The position numbers and the translations under genes were made by a program. From positions 307-26,397 of the IMG/VR virus record IMGVR_UViG_3300030101_004043: a stretch of 26,091 bases of DNA; one strand, given 5' to 3'. Each line of letters opens with the position of its first letter. The first letter of the stretch is position 1. This stretch comes from a virus. Positions 4,041 to 25,655 of the stretch are shown here, one piece after another. The notes under the pieces were generated by a model. It saw only the letters and a program-made list of their open reading frames with translations. It was not told where the DNA came from and did not search any database.

Positions 4041-4648
4041 TTGTTTTCTCTTAATTTATAGGGCTCTTCAAAACTATACCACCCTGTCAAAATATATTTT
4101 TCACTTTTTTCAGATATCATTCCTCGGTGAGTGTGTGTCCAACCAGCAGGCCAAATTAAAGTAAGTCCTTGTTCAGCACTATTTTGTATGTTTGGATATT
4201 CTTTAAATTCTGTGCCAGCATTTTCAACATCATTTAAATATGTCATAAAAACTAAATGTCTGTGGTAACTATTTAAATTACCAGTATTTTCAAAATGCCA
4301 CTCTTTAAATCCTTGATTAGGCTCATAATATTGAAGATTAAAATCTGTCATAATATTAAATCTTTCCGTTAATCCTGAATTTGGATATTTTTTTATGTAT
4401 TGTTCAAGCATACTTTGAAGTAATGCTCTGTATAATCCTATTATATTATCAAAGTTTCCAGAGGATATACTTAAATCTGTGCTCTTTTTAAAATTTTCAT
4501 TTATACCTCCTAATGTTTTTCCTGGGACGGCATATTTTTTATTATAATTAAAATAATCAATTAATTCTTCACAAACATTTTTTTCTATGTACCACCCTCC
4601 AAAAAATGTGCTTGAGTCAAAATGTTTTTCTTTTATTTGAAATTTCAT
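4037..4648 (-). CDS. 2OG-Fe(II) oxygenase-like protein
   Basis: 203 residues from ATG at 4648; a frame reaching 4675 is open, but the 4648 start gives a TAATG junction with the upstream oxygenase stop. Fe-binding candidates are H118 and E120 in KEWHFENTG and H172/H174 in WTHTHRG; K184 in SEKYILTGWYSF may bind 2-oxoglutarate. The strand pattern HLVFMTYLNDVENAGTEF is typical of phage prolyl-hydroxylase-like proteins. The first acidic ligand is Glu rather than the usual Asp, which I also remember from related phage proteins. Middle gene of the coupled oxygenase-oxygenase-glycosyltransferase cassette. Substrate unknown. Confidence 0.8.
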   Translation of the reverse strand: MKFQIKEKHFDSSTFFGGWYIEKNVCEELIDYFNYNKKYAVPGKTLGGINENFKKSTDLSISSGNFDNIIGLYRALLQSMLEQYIKKYPNSGLTERFNIMTDFNLQYYEPNQGFKEWHFENTGNLNSYHRHLVFMTYLNDVENAGTEFKEYPNIQNSAEQGLTLIWPAGWTHTHRGMISEKSEKYILTGWYSFEEPYKLRENK

Positions 4649-5784
4649 TATTTTAAATAAGGGCCCGCTAACCAAGCTACGATTGATCTTCTTGTACCAC
4701 TAATAATAGGTTCAACGCCATGAAGTAAAAAAGAAGGAAAAATAATTACATTTCCAGAGCTAGTATCAGGATAAATTTTATCTCTGCCTAGTTTTAGATA
4801 AAGTCTTCCTCCCTCATAGTCATCATTTAAGAAAGCGATAATTGTTAATTTTCGCATCTCATTTTCATTCTCAAATGATCTGTCAAAACGAGAATCTATA
4901 TGATCAGTAAATACACCATCTTTATCATAACGAAGATATTCACATTGATTACAATGTGTAACATTAAATTTCCACTGTTCATTATTTGCAGCTAATCCTA
5001 TACCTGTTAAAGTCGCCCCTATACCTCTATCTGTAAAAGTTAATATTTTTTTTGTATCTCTTATTGTTCTATCTAAAACATTTCCAATTAATAAAGCATC
5101 AATTGCCACCTCTTCATAATTTTTTTCAAATTGTTCTATTATTTTTTTACAAGAACCTTGTGAAAAAGAATTTCTTTGTATTAAAAAAATATCTCTTTTA
5201 TCTTCATTAACTTTATGATGAGCAAGTTTTCTTCTTTTATCAAATTTCCATTCTTTATTAGGTCCATCTGCATCAACATAGTGTACAAAAACCTGTGCCT
5301 GCCACTGACCTTCAACATACTTTTCTCTCCAATGAAATATTTGCTCTCCTTTGTAAATGACCGCATCTCCCACATTCATATTTATTTGTTTGGCATCACT
5401 TTTATCTAGATTATTACCAACATAGATAGGCCATTGCCCGCCTTCAAAACCTAAAGTAATTGTTGCACTTATTTCACAAGCTGGTCTATCCTTATGTATT
5501 TTTAATTCATCACCGGGAGCATACCATCTAGCATATGCGTAAGTAGGATATAGTTTTTTACCTGTGACGGTTTGCATGTGAGGAGTTAACTGTTCTAAAA
5601 GAGAATCAAATAAAGGAGTGTGCCCCAGAGATAGAGAAAGAGGACATTGAGGATCTTTTTTACAAAGTCCTTGATCAATTAGTTTTTTAAATTCTGCAAC
5701 GTATTGTTGACAATTTTCATTGTCTAAAAATTCATTTAAGTAAACATAATTATTTTCTTGAAAAAATAATTTCTTTTCTTCCAT
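4648..5784 (-). CDS. Tandem (two-domain) 2OG-Fe(II) oxygenase
   Basis: 378 residues carrying two oxygenase domains. Domain 1 (about 1-175) has H97-K-D99 in LKIHKDRPACEISATI, a distal H151 in EQIFHWREKY, and WQAQVFVHYVDADGP. Domain 2 (about 195-378) has H295-I-D297 in FTDHIDSRFD, distal H355 in FLLHGVEPI, and R365/R366 in SGTRRSIVAWLAGP, the classic prolyl-4-hydroxylase arrangement with NDDYEGGRLYL before it. Both metal triads appear intact, so both halves may be active. Start ATG at 5784 has no good Shine-Dalgarno; the AT-rich 48-base leader contains a TATAAT-like box on the minus strand, so the cassette may have its own promoter. Its stop is fused to the next oxygenase start. Confidence 0.8.
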   Translation of the reverse strand: MEEKKLFFQENNYVYLNEFLDNENCQQYVAEFKKLIDQGLCKKDPQCPLSLSLGHTPLFDSLLEQLTPHMQTVTGKKLYPTYAYARWYAPGDELKIHKDRPACEISATITLGFEGGQWPIYVGNNLDKSDAKQINMNVGDAVIYKGEQIFHWREKYVEGQWQAQVFVHYVDADGPNKEWKFDKRRKLAHHKVNEDKRDIFLIQRNSFSQGSCKKIIEQFEKNYEEVAIDALLIGNVLDRTIRDTKKILTFTDRGIGATLTGIGLAANNEQWKFNVTHCNQCEYLRYDKDGVFTDHIDSRFDRSFENENEMRKLTIIAFLNDDYEGGRLYLKLGRDKIYPDTSSGNVIIFPSFLLHGVEPIISGTRRSIVAWLAGPYLK

Positions 5785-18344: not shown

Positions 18345-18644
18345 CTATTTCCCCTTCCTTTTTTTAATCAAAGGACTAGTGCCCTTTATCTGTGCTCCGC
18401 ATTTAACCAACTTGCCTGATTTGGCTTCTAACATTGGTCCACCAGGACCAAACATGCGAAGTTTATCTTTAGGTGAAAGTCCTATAGGACGATCAGGTTC
18501 TTTATAAATTTTCTCCATCAACTTCTGCATTCTGTCGACGTTTTTTAGAGCGTCTTCTTCATCTTTTTTAAACTTAGCATCTAAATCTTTTTGATTTTTC
18601 TTTTCTCTTTTTGCTTGATCTTTTGCTAATTGTTGTACAGCCAT
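18345..18644 (-). CDS. Lys-rich protein with GTSPLIKK C-terminus (99 aa)
   Basis: Charged helical N-terminal half (MAVQQLAKDQAKREKKNQKD onward), a middle part EPDRPIGLSPKDKLRMFGPG, then MLEAKSGKLVKCGAQIKG and the C-terminal TSPLIKKRKGK. The last 10-12 residues match the C-terminus of the next upstream protein, and the DNA is also repeated (18361-18392 vs 18654-18685). Translation uses AAAAGAGG immediately before the start, inside the final KKR codons of that neighbour. Function unknown; basic virion or assembly protein by context. Confidence 0.65.
   Translation of the reverse strand: MAVQQLAKDQAKREKKNQKDLDAKFKKDEEDALKNVDRMQKLMEKIYKEPDRPIGLSPKDKLRMFGPGGPMLEAKSGKLVKCGAQIKGTSPLIKKRKGK
18361..18392 (-). 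repeat. Direct repeat copy 1 encoding KGTSPLIKK
   Basis: 32 bases match 28 positions of the copy at 18654-18685, including 17 consecutive identical bases at one end. Both copies encode the C-terminal peptide of their gene. The match includes synonymous differences, consistent with a duplicated coding tail kept by selection or recent duplication. Confidence 0.7.
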
Positions 18645-18646
18645 GA

Positions 18647-18955
18647 TTACCTCTTTTTAATCAAAGGACTTGTGCCTTTCATTTGCATACCGACCTTGGC
18701 TTTTTTAATTACACCACGACCAATGAGAACATCTTTCATTGTTACTTTGCCGTCATTATTTAAGTCTGGAAATTTTTTCTTTTTCTTCTTTTTCATTTGA
18801 CCACCTTTTTTTGCTTTTTTATCAACCAGGTCAAGTTTACGAATTGCATTTTCATATGCTTCTTGTGAGAGAGTTTTGTTATCTAATGACTTTTTTAAAA
18901 TAGATTCAATAAGTGGTCTCATCGAAGGACCTAGTTTTTTTGGTTCAGTAGCCAT
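18647..18955 (-). CDS. Lys-rich protein with EF-hand/dockerin-like loop (102 aa)
   Basis: 102 residues. Helical N-terminus (PSMRPLIESILKKSLDNKTL), a run of seven lysines (residues 55-61), then FPDLNNDGKVTMKDVLIGRG. D64, N66, D68, K70 and D75 occupy the 1, 3, 5, 7 and 12 positions of a Ca-binding EF-hand or dockerin loop. The C-terminus KVGMQMKGTSPLIKKR repeats that of the neighbouring gene. It may bind Ca2+ weakly; its role in the phage is unknown. The final KKR codons supply the next gene's ribosome site. Confidence 0.65.
   Translation of the reverse strand: MATEPKKLGPSMRPLIESILKKSLDNKTLSQEAYENAIRKLDLVDKKAKKGGQMKKKKKKKFPDLNNDGKVTMKDVLIGRGVIKKAKVGMQMKGTSPLIKKR
18654..18685 (-). repeat. Direct repeat copy 2 encoding KGTSPLIKK
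   Basis: Partner of 18361-18392 (28 of 32 positions identical by eye). On the minus strand it ends in AAAAGAGG-like purines that also act as the Shine-Dalgarno for the gene starting at 18644, so part of this repeat may be preserved for translation rather than for protein function. Confidence 0.7.
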
Positions 18956-19532: not shown

Positions 19533-21917
19533 TCATCCTCTACCTGCCTTCAATTGATCACGTTTAATAGCCATTTCCTGCCTATATTCTGTCAAATCCT
19601 CTTGGCTTTGCAACTTATTTTCGGCTAGACTTCTGTCTTGATCTAATTTTTGCTGATCCATTTGGAATTGCATCATGGACTCTTGAGCTTTTCTTTGAAT
19701 TTCAGCTGCTCTTAAGTCTAGTTCTTTGTTTTTTAATTCAATAATTGGATCTTGAGCTTGTTGAGACATACCTTCTGTTTCTTCTTGCACCATTTTGTTT
19801 GTTATAACAGCAACAATTTGTGCTACTTGAGATTCCGCCTCATTCATAATCTGTTGTTGTACCTGCTGAGGTATTTGACCTCCATACTGTTCTGACAATT
19901 GAGCGATCTGTTGTTGTACAACTTGCATGATTGATGCTCTTGCAGCTAAAGACACGTGCTCTGAAACGTGTCCTTGTAAGATCGCAAGTATTGCTACCTG
20001 AGATCTTACAAGTTGAGAGGACATGAACGACCTATGAGCCTCTATATGAGCATCATGGTTTTGTTGAGGAAAAGCTTGTAACTGACTACCTTTGAGTGCC
20101 TTTGAGTTTTCAACTCCAGGATCCTCAGGTTGAGGTTGTGGAGGCACAGGTAATAGAGTTTCAATTTGTTGCACACCTAAAGCTTCATACATTCTACGAT
20201 ATGCTTCATATAAATTGTGCATTTGTGGATTGCTCTGAGCTAATTGTAATTGCATTTGAGCCATCGTTACTCTTTGTGAAATTGAAAAAATATTAGGATC
20301 AGAAACTGGAAGAACATCAACTCTTTCATCAAAGTCCTGTTGCTTTACAAAGTTATCTCCGTTTGATGTCATGTACGGATAATTAGGTGGTAAGTAAGAA
20401 GAAAATATTTTTGATAATAATTTAAATTCTATTCTTTGAGCGTTATGTAATCTTTTGTGAATAGCTGACATAACTTTTGTTCCCCGCTCAAGAAGAGCCA
20501 TTGTTGTTCCAACAGGCATCTCTGAACCACCCTCAGGCATTTTCATATCAGCAATAGCTGCGAACCGTCTGCCAGCATCAACGCAGAACCCTAATAACTG
20601 AAATAATGTGCCAGACGGTTCTTTGTAGGGTAAGGGAAGAAGTGAGTCCCTTAGTACACCGTTAGGTGCATCTACATCTCTAAACTCTCCTGGTTGAATC
20701 GGTTGATCATCATCTCTTATTCTAAAACCACGAGACTTGAACCCAGCAGGTAAATTTGACAATGTTCCCGCATCAAGCAACTGACGTAAAGAGGCAGTCG
20801 CAGTTCGTGTGAGACCACCCAACATATGAATAAGACCAAAGCCATAAAAACCAAGACCGGGTAAAAATTTGTAATGAACGAAATACTGAGTTTTCTTTTT
20901 GAGAGGATCACCTCTACCAAAGTTTCTATAAATTGATAAAACTTTCCCTGAACCTTCATCAATAGTGACAATATAAGGAACTTTAATTCCTGTCGGTTCA
21001 CCATTTTGATTAACGTCTTCAAAGCCCTCTAAGTCTAACAAAACGTGCATTTCTAACAAAGTATAATCTTGATAGTTTTCTTCTTTTTTTGTCCCTTCAA
21101 GTTCATCATACTTTTCTTGAATGTCGTCCTCAACTTCGTAAGGATTGATTTTTACATCTCTATAAAAACCTGAGACTTGTTGTTTTCTAATTTCATTTTG
21201 TGTCATCTTAACAATGTGAGTGACACGCTCAGCAGATTCTAGGTCTGCTGTCATGTAAGGTACAATAAGATCTTCGGCAGCAACAAACTTTGATACCGCT
21301 CTGTTCATAGCTCCGTCGTAATAAACTTTTTTAAATGCAGAGCCTGCTAAAGGTAAGTGAAACAACATTTGATCCATCTCAGGATCATACTCCTCCATTA
21401 CATTTGTAATGTAATAATTCATAAACTCTTTGACTCTGTCTGCTTGTGCTTCCGACTGAGGAGTTCGTACACCAACTAACTGTGTTCGAACAGGACCTCC
21501 AGCAGGTAACATTTCTTTATAAGCTTGTGCTTGAAACTGAACCACTGACTCTGAGAGTAACGGATGATAAACTCCACTGGCTCCATCAAAAGGTCTACTT
21601 CTTTCCTCGTACTTAAAACCAAGAAGGTCTAACCCTTTGGTATAACCTAGTTCCCATTCTTCACGAGAAACTTTATCTTGTTCGTATTCACTTTGTAATT
21701 CATTTGACAACGTGTCCAACTGACCGTCTTCCATGAACTCTGCAAGGTTAGAACCAAAGTCTACCTCCTCTTGTATCTGTTCAGGATTGATGACGGCAGA
21801 ACCGTCCTCTTCAATTAAAAATCTTTCATCTGTTGCAGGACCATCCATTTGAACTTCTGTTCCAACTTTTGCAACTTCAATTGTTTCGTTTTGATTTATG
21901 CCTTTATCTATCGCCAT
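19533..21917 (-). CDS. Portal protein
   Basis: 794 residues, large as in podovirus-type portals. Key segments: RPFDGASGVYHPLLSESVVQ (about 108-127), EYDPEMDQMLFHLPLAGSAF, then KKVYYDGAMNRAV, EDLIVPYMTADLESAERVTH, YRNFGRGDPLKKKTQYFVHY, LPGLGFYGFGLIHMLGGLTR and AGTLSNLPAGFKSRGFRIRD, all of which fit the marine-phage/SU10-like portal family as I remember it. The C-terminal 200 residues are Gln-rich and helical (barrel or crown region, IMQVVQQQIAQLSEQYGGQI). Forms the dodecameric DNA gate of the head. Overlaps the upstream polyvalent-type gene by 14 bases, with AGAGG inside it. Confidence 0.85.
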   Translation of the reverse strand: MAIDKGINQNETIEVAKVGTEVQMDGPATDERFLIEEDGSAVINPEQIQEEVDFGSNLAEFMEDGQLDTLSNELQSEYEQDKVSREEWELGYTKGLDLLGFKYEERSRPFDGASGVYHPLLSESVVQFQAQAYKEMLPAGGPVRTQLVGVRTPQSEAQADRVKEFMNYYITNVMEEYDPEMDQMLFHLPLAGSAFKKVYYDGAMNRAVSKFVAAEDLIVPYMTADLESAERVTHIVKMTQNEIRKQQVSGFYRDVKINPYEVEDDIQEKYDELEGTKKEENYQDYTLLEMHVLLDLEGFEDVNQNGEPTGIKVPYIVTIDEGSGKVLSIYRNFGRGDPLKKKTQYFVHYKFLPGLGFYGFGLIHMLGGLTRTATASLRQLLDAGTLSNLPAGFKSRGFRIRDDDQPIQPGEFRDVDAPNGVLRDSLLPLPYKEPSGTLFQLLGFCVDAGRRFAAIADMKMPEGGSEMPVGTTMALLERGTKVMSAIHKRLHNAQRIEFKLLSKIFSSYLPPNYPYMTSNGDNFVKQQDFDERVDVLPVSDPNIFSISQRVTMAQMQLQLAQSNPQMHNLYEAYRRMYEALGVQQIETLLPVPPQPQPEDPGVENSKALKGSQLQAFPQQNHDAHIEAHRSFMSSQLVRSQVAILAILQGHVSEHVSLAARASIMQVVQQQIAQLSEQYGGQIPQQVQQQIMNEAESQVAQIVAVITNKMVQEETEGMSQQAQDPIIELKNKELDLRAAEIQRKAQESMMQFQMDQQKLDQDRSLAENKLQSQEDLTEYRQEMAIKRDQLKAGRG

Positions 21918-24189
21918 TAATAACCTCTTCTATTGAAACTAAACTAGGACTTCCTACTTGTCCACCTTCTTTGTATGACGGAAAGTTGTTTAAGTTAATC
22001 CCACCTAATTGTTTTTTCTGACCTTCGTTTAAGGATTCTATCATAGGTGTGAAGTCTATGAAAGCATAACCCTCTTTCAAATTAGGGTTTTTACCTTTTG
22101 TTTGGTTTTGTGAGAGCATAGGTTGATTCTCATATTCTCTGCCCGAGCCAAACTGATCCCCTTGAAGATTAAAAAATTTATTACCTTGTGCATAAAGAAC
22201 AGGAGATTCATAGTTCTCCCACCCCAAGATCTCCGCCATTTTATCGTATTTCTTAACTACGTTTTCTGCAGCTTTGTACATTGTATTGTTTTCAGGATTC
22301 TTTGCTGAACCATAAAAGTTGTAGTGTCCTTGAGCTTGTTTTCCATATTTTTCTAAAACTTCTTCTGTGTTGGCAAAGTTAGTACCACCACCGCCTCCGT
22401 GTTGAATTTGAGTTTGAACTTCTCCAGGTAACCAAGATACATAGTTTATTCCTCTGTTTAAAGAATCTAAAGATGTTTGCCATATGGCTTGCTCTGCGTA
22501 AACCAAAGGATTAGATGCGTAAGGAATGTTGACGCTATATTCTCCTCCTGATTTTTTCTGCACATTGTACAATTGATTTTTCAAACTGTAGAGAGGTTTG
22601 ATTCTTTTATAGAAACGATATATCTCATCTCTCTTGGTCTTATCAATATTACCCTCTAATTGAGACTTCGCTAAATATTCATTTATATATTTATCAAAAC
22701 TAGGTAAGTTTGTTATTTTACCTGTGCCTTCTTTGACTGCATCTTGAAACTCGCTCATCATCTTTCCATATTGAAATTCTATTTCTCGTAAAACATTTTG
22801 ATCAATATTTCTTTTATCCATTTCAGCTAAAACAGTGTTTTGAGTGTAGTCTTGTATTTCTTTTTGAATCCTATTAATTTTTAGATCTGCTGATGGATCT
22901 TGAAAGCTTCTTGATTTTCTTCGACGCTCTTCTTGATCAGACTGAACCTCTTGTATGATTGTCGTATCTAAACCTGATATATCTTTGTAGTCCGCACTTC
23001 TAACATGAAAGGAGTCTAAATTTTTAAACTGACTAGAAAAGTGAGTGCTCTGTGATACCCCCTCCATAAATCCAGGAACATCTCTTGGATTAAAAGTTAA
23101 TCCTTTAACTTGATAGTTTCTCCCGCCACCCAAGCTGTAGTTACTTTGTCCTGCTGATAGATATTGTTGAACAGGTGTATCAAACCCTGTGTTCTCAGCC
23201 ATACCTCTTACGACAGATAATAAACTATTAAGCTCTTGATTTTGTGTTTCTAAATATGCAATGTCTCTGTTTCTTGCTACTCTGTTAAAAGGAAGAACAC
23301 CTTGAGAAAGTCTTTTAATTTTTTTTGAATTTGCTTTAATTTGATCATAGATCGGTTGACCTATGTCGCCGATCTGCTTACCAACATAAGATGCCTTGTC
23401 TTGATCATCAGGAATGCCTCTTAAAGTATCATTTAAATTTTTAAATTGATTTTCTAACAGTTCACTCATTTGAAATTTAAAATCTTTAAATTCTTTTGTG
23501 CCTCCTTGTTGAGCTTGTAAGTTTTCCAAACCGACACGGTAGTTTTGTAGTAAAGCATCTGTTGATGATATCCTACCTTCAAAGCCTTGATACTTTGTTT
23601 TAGGATCTGTTTGATCAAACATGCTTAAAAATTCAGTTGTGGTCATAGCTGAATTAGGATCTTGATTAATCATTTTCATCAGTGAAAATTCAAAACCTGA
23701 TTCTCTTAATTCTGCTGGATTGTAAAATTTACCAAAAGGAGTCTCGTTATATTTATCTGTACCTAATCTTCTTAACTCACCCAAGAGGTCTGCTGTTTTA
23801 ATTTCTTGATTGCCAGGAAGCATGTTTAGATAAGCACGGATATTGGAAAAGTTTGAGTCAAGTGATGCCCCTGCATCTAGATACTGATCATTATTGTAAG
23901 AATTTTTTTTGTATGCTTCGTTGTCTAAAGCAGATAACCAATTGATTACTTCAGGTAGATTTGGACCACCACCACCTGGATCTTTCTTAGGTTCATCGTC
24001 ATCAATTTTTGCAGGTAGCTTTTCTTTCTCATCATCTTTCTGTTGTGAGAACGCAATGAGGTCTTGTGATGTAATCTCTGCGTTGGCTACAGGAGTTGAT
24101 CTCAAAGCTGTGCCGACTGCTTGTACAACAGGATTCAATCTTAAAAACTGTAATGCTTTTTTACCGACCCCCGAGTTTATATCTACCAT
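21904..24189 (-). CDS. Large polyvalent-type phage protein, putative ejected virion protein
   Basis: 761 residues between terminase and portal. N-terminus contains a hydrophobic stretch (ALQFLRLNPVVQAVGTALRS, 12-31) and an acidic/Gly linker (about 51-76). In the centre I see, in the right order, the signature I know from large polyvalent phage proteins: NYQVKGLTF (358-366), THFSSQF...FHVR (382-397), TTIIQEVQSDQEERR (409-423), then AIWQTSLDSLNRGINYVSWL at 568-587 with PGEVQ, a KKYDKMAEILGW element (646-657) and AFIDFTPMIESLNEGQKKQL (709-728). This parallels 'EEIQSD.' and 'W..LALKR.L..A...GY..IAWTPGE.Q' blocks. The activity of that domain is not established to my knowledge; co-ejection with DNA is inferred. 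Confidence 0.6.
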   Translation of the reverse strand: MVDINSGVGKKALQFLRLNPVVQAVGTALRSTPVANAEITSQDLIAFSQQKDDEKEKLPAKIDDDEPKKDPGGGGPNLPEVINWLSALDNEAYKKNSYNNDQYLDAGASLDSNFSNIRAYLNMLPGNQEIKTADLLGELRRLGTDKYNETPFGKFYNPAELRESGFEFSLMKMINQDPNSAMTTTEFLSMFDQTDPKTKYQGFEGRISSTDALLQNYRVGLENLQAQQGGTKEFKDFKFQMSELLENQFKNLNDTLRGIPDDQDKASYVGKQIGDIGQPIYDQIKANSKKIKRLSQGVLPFNRVARNRDIAYLETQNQELNSLLSVVRGMAENTGFDTPVQQYLSAGQSNYSLGGGRNYQVKGLTFNPRDVPGFMEGVSQSTHFSSQFKNLDSFHVRSADYKDISGLDTTIIQEVQSDQEERRRKSRSFQDPSADLKINRIQKEIQDYTQNTVLAEMDKRNIDQNVLREIEFQYGKMMSEFQDAVKEGTGKITNLPSFDKYINEYLAKSQLEGNIDKTKRDEIYRFYKRIKPLYSLKNQLYNVQKKSGGEYSVNIPYASNPLVYAEQAIWQTSLDSLNRGINYVSWLPGEVQTQIQHGGGGGTNFANTEEVLEKYGKQAQGHYNFYGSAKNPENNTMYKAAENVVKKYDKMAEILGWENYESPVLYAQGNKFFNLQGDQFGSGREYENQPMLSQNQTKGKNPNLKEGYAFIDFTPMIESLNEGQKKQLGGINLNNFPSYKEGGQVGSPSLVSIEEVINGDR

Positions 24190-25655
24190 TAATAATATTC
24201 CCTTTTTCGTTTGCCTACTGGCTCGTCCTTAAAATCGTCTTCCAACGCTACCCAGTGACCTTGTCTAAATCGCATCAAGGCTTGGGTCGTTGAGTCAACA
24301 AGGTCGTCATACTCTCCATAAGGAAAAGCTGCACACTCCTCGATTAACTCCTCCGCCCAAGCTTCCCCTTCTGGGTACCATACGACCCCAGATTGAAATA
24401 GAGGGGCTACTGAGTTTACTCTGCTCAACTTATCATTGCCTTTGCTTGGTGTAAAGTTGATAACAGGAATACCACGCATTCGTAATTCTTGCGTTAACGG
24501 CGTACCTGATGCTTTTGCTTCGATGACCACGGACTCCGGTTCCCAATACTTGTAGCTGTCATAGGCTATCTCTTTCATCTCAGGAAAGTCCCACCGACCT
24601 TTCTTCACGTCTAACAAAATTATATTCGGCGTTTTTTCGTCAGGACAAAAGACTCCCCATGTAGTGATAGCGGAATAGTCCGCCGTTTCTTTTTTACTAA
24701 ATGCTGTATCGTAAGATTGTATCACGTGTGCTAGACCAGGCATCTTAGGACTCTCCCACGGTTGCCACCATTCACGTTTGATAATAGCACCTTCTTCGGC
24801 TGTGGGATTCTGTTGCCACTGAGCATTCCATTTAGCAAGAGAGATCGAAGCTTTGACAGATTCTAATTCTTCTTTTTGCCAATACTCAGGCCATACAGGT
24901 TTATCTGACGGCATAATAGCTGGAAACTCTATCACGTCCCATTGGTCCGCTTTCGGTTGTCCTTGGGCCTTGATCAGTTCTCCAGTGATATCTTTTGTAT
25001 TCCAACGAGTCATCACGATGACAATCGAACCACCTGGTTGTAAACGCTGACGAGGACCTGATGAATACCACTCCCACGCATTCTCTAACGCCGTGGCGCT
25101 CAAGGCATCTTGCTCGGAATGTGGGTCGTCGATAATTAACAGATCAGCACCACGCCCTGTTATTGCTCCACCGACACCCGCAGAAAAATATTCGCCTCCT
25201 TGATTTGTTTCCCAACGACCTGCTGCTTTGGAGTCCGCCGATAATTCCATGCCAGGAAAAATATTTTGATAGTCTTCGGTGTCAATTAAGTTTCTGACTT
25301 TACGACCGAAGCGTTGTGCAAGTTCCGCTGTGTGAGAGGTTTGAATTATCTTGAGCCTTGGTTCACGGCCCATCATCCATGCAGGAAATAAATAAGATGC
25401 AAATTCAGATTTCGTGTGTCGTGGAGGCATGTTGACAATAAGTCTCTTAATTTTCTTGGAGGCGATAGCCTCAAATTTTTTTGCAATAATTTTATGGTGT
25501 CGTCCAGCAATAAACTCTGGCCACACAGATTTTACAAAGGTCAAGAAATCTTCTTTCTGATCTTTTTGTAGTTCTAAAATTTTTTTTCTCAAGAGGAGTT
25601 TCTTTAATGTCTCTTCTTGTTCTAAGGGGGTCAGCCCCTCAATATTAATTCCCAT
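24189..25655 (-). CDS. terL: Terminase large subunit
   Basis: 488 residues. ATPase half: deviant Walker A N75-MPPRHTKS (K82), Walker B LLIIDDPH (172-179, D176/D177), coupling-motif region MTRWNTKDITG (215-225). Nuclease half: D316 in QSYDTAF, E379 in VVIEAKASG, and D450/D451/D454 in YDDLVDSTTQ, the three acidic positions expected of the RNase H-like headful nuclease. Powers and cuts DNA during packaging through the portal. No Shine-Dalgarno precedes the ATG, and a candidate promoter places the transcript start at or next to the ATG, suggesting a leaderless mRNA. No small terminase subunit is recognisable in the window. Confidence 0.93.
   Translation of the reverse strand: MGINIEGLTPLEQEETLKKLLLRKKILELQKDQKEDFLTFVKSVWPEFIAGRHHKIIAKKFEAIASKKIKRLIVNMPPRHTKSEFASYLFPAWMMGREPRLKIIQTSHTAELAQRFGRKVRNLIDTEDYQNIFPGMELSADSKAAGRWETNQGGEYFSAGVGGAITGRGADLLIIDDPHSEQDALSATALENAWEWYSSGPRQRLQPGGSIVIVMTRWNTKDITGELIKAQGQPKADQWDVIEFPAIMPSDKPVWPEYWQKEELESVKASISLAKWNAQWQQNPTAEEGAIIKREWWQPWESPKMPGLAHVIQSYDTAFSKKETADYSAITTWGVFCPDEKTPNIILLDVKKGRWDFPEMKEIAYDSYKYWEPESVVIEAKASGTPLTQELRMRGIPVINFTPSKGNDKLSRVNSVAPLFQSGVVWYPEGEAWAEELIEECAAFPYGEYDDLVDSTTQALMRFRQGHWVALEDDFKDEPVGKRKREYY

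Follow-up and report, generated by a model that had tools for sequence, protein, structure and literature searches.

A large protein between terminase and portal

We asked what kind of protein lies between the terminase and portal genes in a 26,091-nucleotide stretch of viral DNA (the window; positions 307 to 26,397 of the 31.5 kb IMG/VR virus record IMGVR_UViG_3300030101_004043), and what it might do for the phage. The slot ORF (21904-24189, minus strand) starts with ATG and encodes 761 aa. Its first position shares one base with the stop of the terminase large subunit (TerL) gene and its end overlaps the start of the portal gene. Matches of the two flanks to phrog_38 (TerL, 3.9e-117) and phrog_1216 (portal, 1.2e-46) bear out the gene order given in a preliminary description of this DNA. 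The accompanying premise that TerL and portal are usually adjacent does not hold for the window lineage, where an ORF of 566-1445 aa commonly separates them. One close relative has an extra 150-aa ORF between TerL and the slot protein (L002:4288-4740). The annotated phages closest by TerL and portal are 023Pt_psg01, the Pelagibacter phages HTVC027P and HTVC023P, and DSL-LC04, and on this basis the window virus is a marine, SAR11-phage-like relative of the HTVC023P type. Such phages have been described as belonging to the most abundant phages of the sea (PMC9599517).

The same description proposed that the slot protein contains a diverged form of the EEIQSD block, which is known from large polyvalent phage proteins. 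All motifs of the claimed order were located, from NYQVKGLTF (residues 358-366) through THF (382-384), FHVR (394-397) and IIQEVQSD (411-418) to FIDFTPM (710-716). The features of the locus, all on the minus strand, are as follows.

24189..25655, minus strand: TerL, upstream of the slot ORF
21904..24189, minus strand: slot protein, 761 aa, with N-terminus (residues 1-83, disordered or variable), helical region (84-332), core (about 357-739) and GG tail
23194..23940, minus strand: helical region, residues 84-332, helices in the AlphaFold2 model
21973..23121, minus strand: EEIQSD-type core (residues 357-739), containing insertions and predicted to be GNAT-like
22936..23043, minus strand: signature H383, H395-x-R397, G406, E414-x-Q416-x-D418, which may form an active or ligand site
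22549..22896, minus strand: residues 432-547, which interrupt the core as a long helical insertion in the AlphaFold2 model
22414..22461, minus strand: LNRGINYVSWLPGEVQ, residues 577-592, helix then strand, matching canonical 'GYD.I.WTPG..Q'
22219..22284, minus strand: helix 636-657 with KKYDKMAEILGW (residues 646-657), matching canonical 'GFYDKMLPDYLNKYGK'
22042..22062, minus strand: FIDFTPM, residues 710-716, matching canonical 'I[D/P]ITPEM'
21907..21981, minus strand: C-terminal tail with the motif [FY]xxGGx[VIT] (YKEGGQV), shared by many slot proteins close to their C-terminus
19533..21917, minus strand: portal, downstream of the slot ORF

The slot protein is related to the EEIQSD block

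Single-protein searches with the slot protein returned no match in Pfam, PHROGs, NCBIfam, PDB sequences or phage records. We therefore compared families, and the HMM-HMM comparison that had been proposed as a check recovered the link. The canonical set consisted of proteins from viral contigs scanned for EEIQSDWHQ; slot proteins were collected from window relatives via the portal and fell into class A (the window family, 761-826 aa), class B (860-913 aa), class C (1248-1445 aa) and class D (566 aa; L197). Classes A and B, plainly homologous to each other (E 2e-90), aligned with 43 EEIQSDWHQ proteins at an hhalign score of 58.7 (E 1.7e-6), against 19.2 for a reversed control. Since hhalign E-values apply to single comparisons, we also ran 150 column shuffles, all of which scored lower (mean 17.6, sd 3.3, maximum 30.2). 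The remaining classes bridge the gap, matching the canonical block at E 3e-10 (class C) and E 1.7e-18 (class D). Together with the synteny of block and portal and the structural database matches described below, these comparisons uphold the proposed kinship, and the assignment of the slot ORF as a diverged, stand-alone member of the EEIQSD domain family of giant polyvalent phage proteins is solid at the level of sequence.

H383, R397, G406, E414, Q416 and D418 were identical in 59/59 aligned relatives, and H395 in 56/59. The glutamate, glutamine and aspartate are fixed by the selection pattern in canonical rows, which is not so in slot classes A-D; 22 of the 59 rows are slot proteins found via portal or window-protein searches rather than the EEIQSD pattern, and that pattern does not cover H383, H395, R397 or G406. 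The canonical WHQxGRxxGY segment that follows the ExQxD strand is absent from classes A, B and C, with QEERRRKSRSFQ in its place in the window. The window protein thus falls outside the canonical subgroup, and the segment is no defining feature of the family as a whole. A by-eye likeness between the helical region 84-332 and the helices of canonical block proteins was dropped, its hhalign score (16.9) lying below the shuffle maximum (19.3).

The window protein shares motif order, the invariant H / HxR / ExQxD residues, predicted topology and a portal-proximal gene position with the canonical block, but is highly diverged, contains a 116-residue helical insertion and lacks WHQxGRxxGY. The block has no model in Pfam or NCBIfam, and the LPD numbering of Iyer et al. 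may already include it. phrog_7348, whose profile has 2564 positions and is labelled endolysin, includes the block; we rejected this label as a sign of lysis because the match spans only the block region. With no curated model covering the block in the libraries searched, it had rightly been called uncharacterised.

Other proteins with the block also carry ART-PolyVal, PBECR5 or LPD22, in line with the combinations of ART-PolyVal, PBECR and LPD domains in polyvalent proteins (PMC5512222). The window protein resembles polyvalent proteins in its late-gene location and predicted injection with DNA; it differs from them in having one recognisable domain, the Pfam, PHROG and NCBIfam searches returning no second domain, whereas a polyvalent protein is defined by two or more domains with disparate activities in a single polypeptide. 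In class C proteins (L155-L161, 1248-1445 aa) the block is preceded by a very long stretch; Pfam found no domain there in the member tested, L155. A free block protein, initially thought remarkable, is not unusual, since stand-alone versions of about 530-1000 aa are common.

Structure prediction points to a GNAT-like core

AlphaFold2 models of a canonical fragment (L055, 411 aa; pLDDT 81, pTM 0.72) and of the window protein (pLDDT 73.9, pTM 0.62) have the same order of elements: a strand, a strand-turn-strand ending in ExQxD, a helix, the insertion, a helix, a short strand, a long helix and further strands. Foldseek against the PDB gave no significant match (canonical model, best E 0.037; window model, best E 2.0). 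On structural re-alignment, the PDB matches of the canonical model were nearly all GNAT-fold chains, the top one being the Mtb ICL2 C-terminal domain (Z 9.2, 122 aa, rmsd 3.1). This domain is GNAT-like, and acetyl-CoA activates the enzyme to which it belongs (PMC6788997). For the window model, the best PDB matches were helical bundles, and the other recurrent group comprised GNAT chains (Z 5.4-6.5). Chance alone often gives Z values below 8, and models with no true match typically reach a best Z of 7-8; the GNAT matches therefore give a moderate lead. Against BFVD, the window model matched phage proteins with E-values as low as 1.2e-9, among them some named large polyvalent. This result is partly circular: the alignment used already contained canonical rows, which ties both the models and the BFVD matches to the sequence link.

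The predicted strand-helix core resembles GNAT acetyltransferases and the ICL2 domain (Z up to 9.2, canonical member), but differs from GNAT acetyltransferases in showing no detected sequence similarity, in its very large insertions and in having no evident canonical pyrophosphate loop. The Pfam GNAT profile did not match, and no Q/RxxGxG/A loop was present in window residues 416-430; we therefore describe the window protein as GNAT-like by predicted fold and do not file it as a GNAT member. From the models we lean slightly towards a GNAT-like core, with large insertions within what is most likely a GNAT-like fold. This predicted fold, which we hold with moderate confidence, is the new, testable element beside a sequence homology confirmed with controls.

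In GNAT enzymes such as GCN5, a glutamate on the fourth strand is often the general base. Counted in order, the strand carrying the invariant E-x-Q-x-D of the block would match this fourth strand, and the canonical WHQxGRxxGY could be a variant CoA loop. Without this glycine-containing segment in the window branch, CoA binding there may differ or be lost; for this reason we rate ligand binding and catalysis by the core below the fold itself, as possible but doubtful.

The TerL-portal interval is a cargo slot

In about 19 loci of an unselected EEIQSDWHQ scan, no more than 20 bp separated the end of the block protein from a homologous portal. TerL lay <300 bp upstream of the block protein in four loci (L034, L040, L041 and L048), and a single contig (L047) carried the block protein, a phrog_1216 portal and the major head protein. 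A block gene directly upstream of a phrog_1216-like portal, as in the window, is thus a recurrent arrangement. The interval itself is a recurrent cargo slot in the HTVC023P-related lineage that is also taken by unrelated large proteins. Its content varies: HTVC027P and psg01 have two unrelated large proteins there, DSL-LC04 a PcfJ-like protein (PF14284) and HTVC023P a 201-aa protein. In CRP-901 the slot is empty, and LysM-domain and nuclease proteins follow the portal instead. In MW202675 the portal is followed by a block protein and by a protein with PF18823 inorganic pyrophosphatase, another polyvalent-type domain. The cultivated pelagiphage HTVC028P shares the block with the window in gp34 (L213:4204-7068, hypothetical, 954 aa), which is flanked by genes annotated as internal virion proteins; it lies among T7-like internal virion genes, whereas the window gene lies between TerL and portal.

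The slot gene is fast-evolving, accelerated relative to its neighbours, yet under purifying selection. The window slot protein is conserved at 66-69% in four other contigs. In comparisons with the nearest relatives, identity is 66-68% for the slot protein, 97-98% for TerL and 93-96% for the portal. The dN/dS of the slot gene was 0.21-0.31, compared with 0.04-0.06 for TerL and portal; the value for the core alone (0.13-0.19) indicates that the core is under purifying selection. The dS of the slot gene was also higher than that of its neighbours, so recombination adds to its divergence.

A candidate virion-delivered protein

The explanation that best accounts for the whole is a GNAT-like EEIQSD protein that is delivered with the virion and acts early, a reading to which we give about even weight. 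The slot protein would be made together with the late head genes, packaged inside the capsid beside the portal and ejected along with the DNA. Its core, keeping the invariant H / HxR / ExQxD site, would then act inside the cell at an early stage of infection and would probably modify a host protein or small molecule in an acyl-CoA-dependent reaction. Delivery with the virion is the step we consider fairly probable, on account of gene position, the accessory behaviour of the slot, HTVC028P gp34 and the polyvalent-protein model (PMC5512222); a literature search for virion proteomics returned no data on the slot gene. The slot protein might serve host takeover, as first supposed. Only tentatively do we extend this to the block at large, as a GNAT-superfamily acyltransferase, so far unrecognised, that is delivered with phage DNA and of which the window would represent a diverged marine branch.

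Much of the same evidence could be read mechanically. An assembly or ejection-channel protein at the portal or internal core, with the GNAT-like fold as a mere scaffold, would suit a gene that adjoins the portal in a late operon, the position of HTVC028P gp34 where T7-like phages encode ejectosome proteins, and the high helical content of the window model. We think this rather unlikely, since the slot is empty in CRP-901 and filled with unrelated proteins in relatives, unlike an essential structural part, the slot gene evolves rapidly relative to the portal, and the polar site residues are invariant. Less likely again is that the injected protein carries a non-catalytic GNAT-like domain that binds a ligand, as an acyl-CoA sensor or decoy. 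The best fold match is indeed a regulatory GNAT-like domain, that of ICL2 (PMC6788997), and the window branch is missing the glycine-containing segment; the near-invariant E-x-Q-x-D and H-x-R nevertheless exceed the needs of a decoy fold.

The preliminary description had pointed to ADP-ribosyltransferase or protease-like folds for comparison. Some block-bearing proteins do carry ART-PolyVal, but there it forms a separate domain outside the block, and the ART-PolyVal profile (PF18760) had no match in the window protein; neither fold appeared among the structural matches, which alone is no proof of absence, and the predicted fold indicated GNAT instead. We consider such a core very improbable. 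Coincidental motif resemblance, to which the lack of any match in single-sequence searches (Pfam, PHROGs, phage records) might point, is contradicted by the shuffle control, the bridging families and synteny, and its probability is negligible.

The fold hypothesis and the seven near-invariant residues give a testable activity to a block that is widespread in environmental phages and has neither a curated model in the libraries searched nor an assigned activity. Portal-side stand-alone versions are compact, making expression or deletion far easier than for 3000-residue polyvalent proteins, and their slot is the place where HTVC023P-type phages carry lineage-specific cargo. HTVC028P being cultivated, gp34 offers a convenient experimental system.

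C-terminal tails and other genes of the window

A short GGx[VIT]-like motif, noted by inspection and with no enrichment statistic behind it, occurs in almost every large slot protein, unrelated ones included, often near the C-terminus; examples are YKEGGQV, RKSGGQV, YKEGGKT, YAKGGIV and ADGGRIGY (window 21907-21981; L133, L155, L197, L209-L212). In a freshwater group (L217-L241, L039-L096), block proteins of 527-1082 aa have variable middles and a near-constant C-terminal tail, NRDTMFMELSNKKLKRK. We also asked whether the C-terminal tail of slot proteins might act as a packaging tag that moves between proteins, and rejected the idea. With a DNA pattern made for a single freshwater version, 30/32 carriers showed the block and the remaining 2/32 are cut at the locus end with block remnants present, so this version was not seen on unrelated proteins.

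Elsewhere in the window, two adjacent small proteins (18345-18644 and 18647-18955) have near-identical C-terminal tails, KCGAQIKGTSPLIKKRKGK and VGMQMKGTSPLIKKR. A 378-aa ORF at 4648-5784 resembles a ferrochelatase-labelled PHROG in its N-terminal half and a 2OG-Fe(II) oxygenase in its C-terminal half, of which Pfam backs the oxygenase half only. Genes with these two names are separate and neighbouring in HTVC023P.
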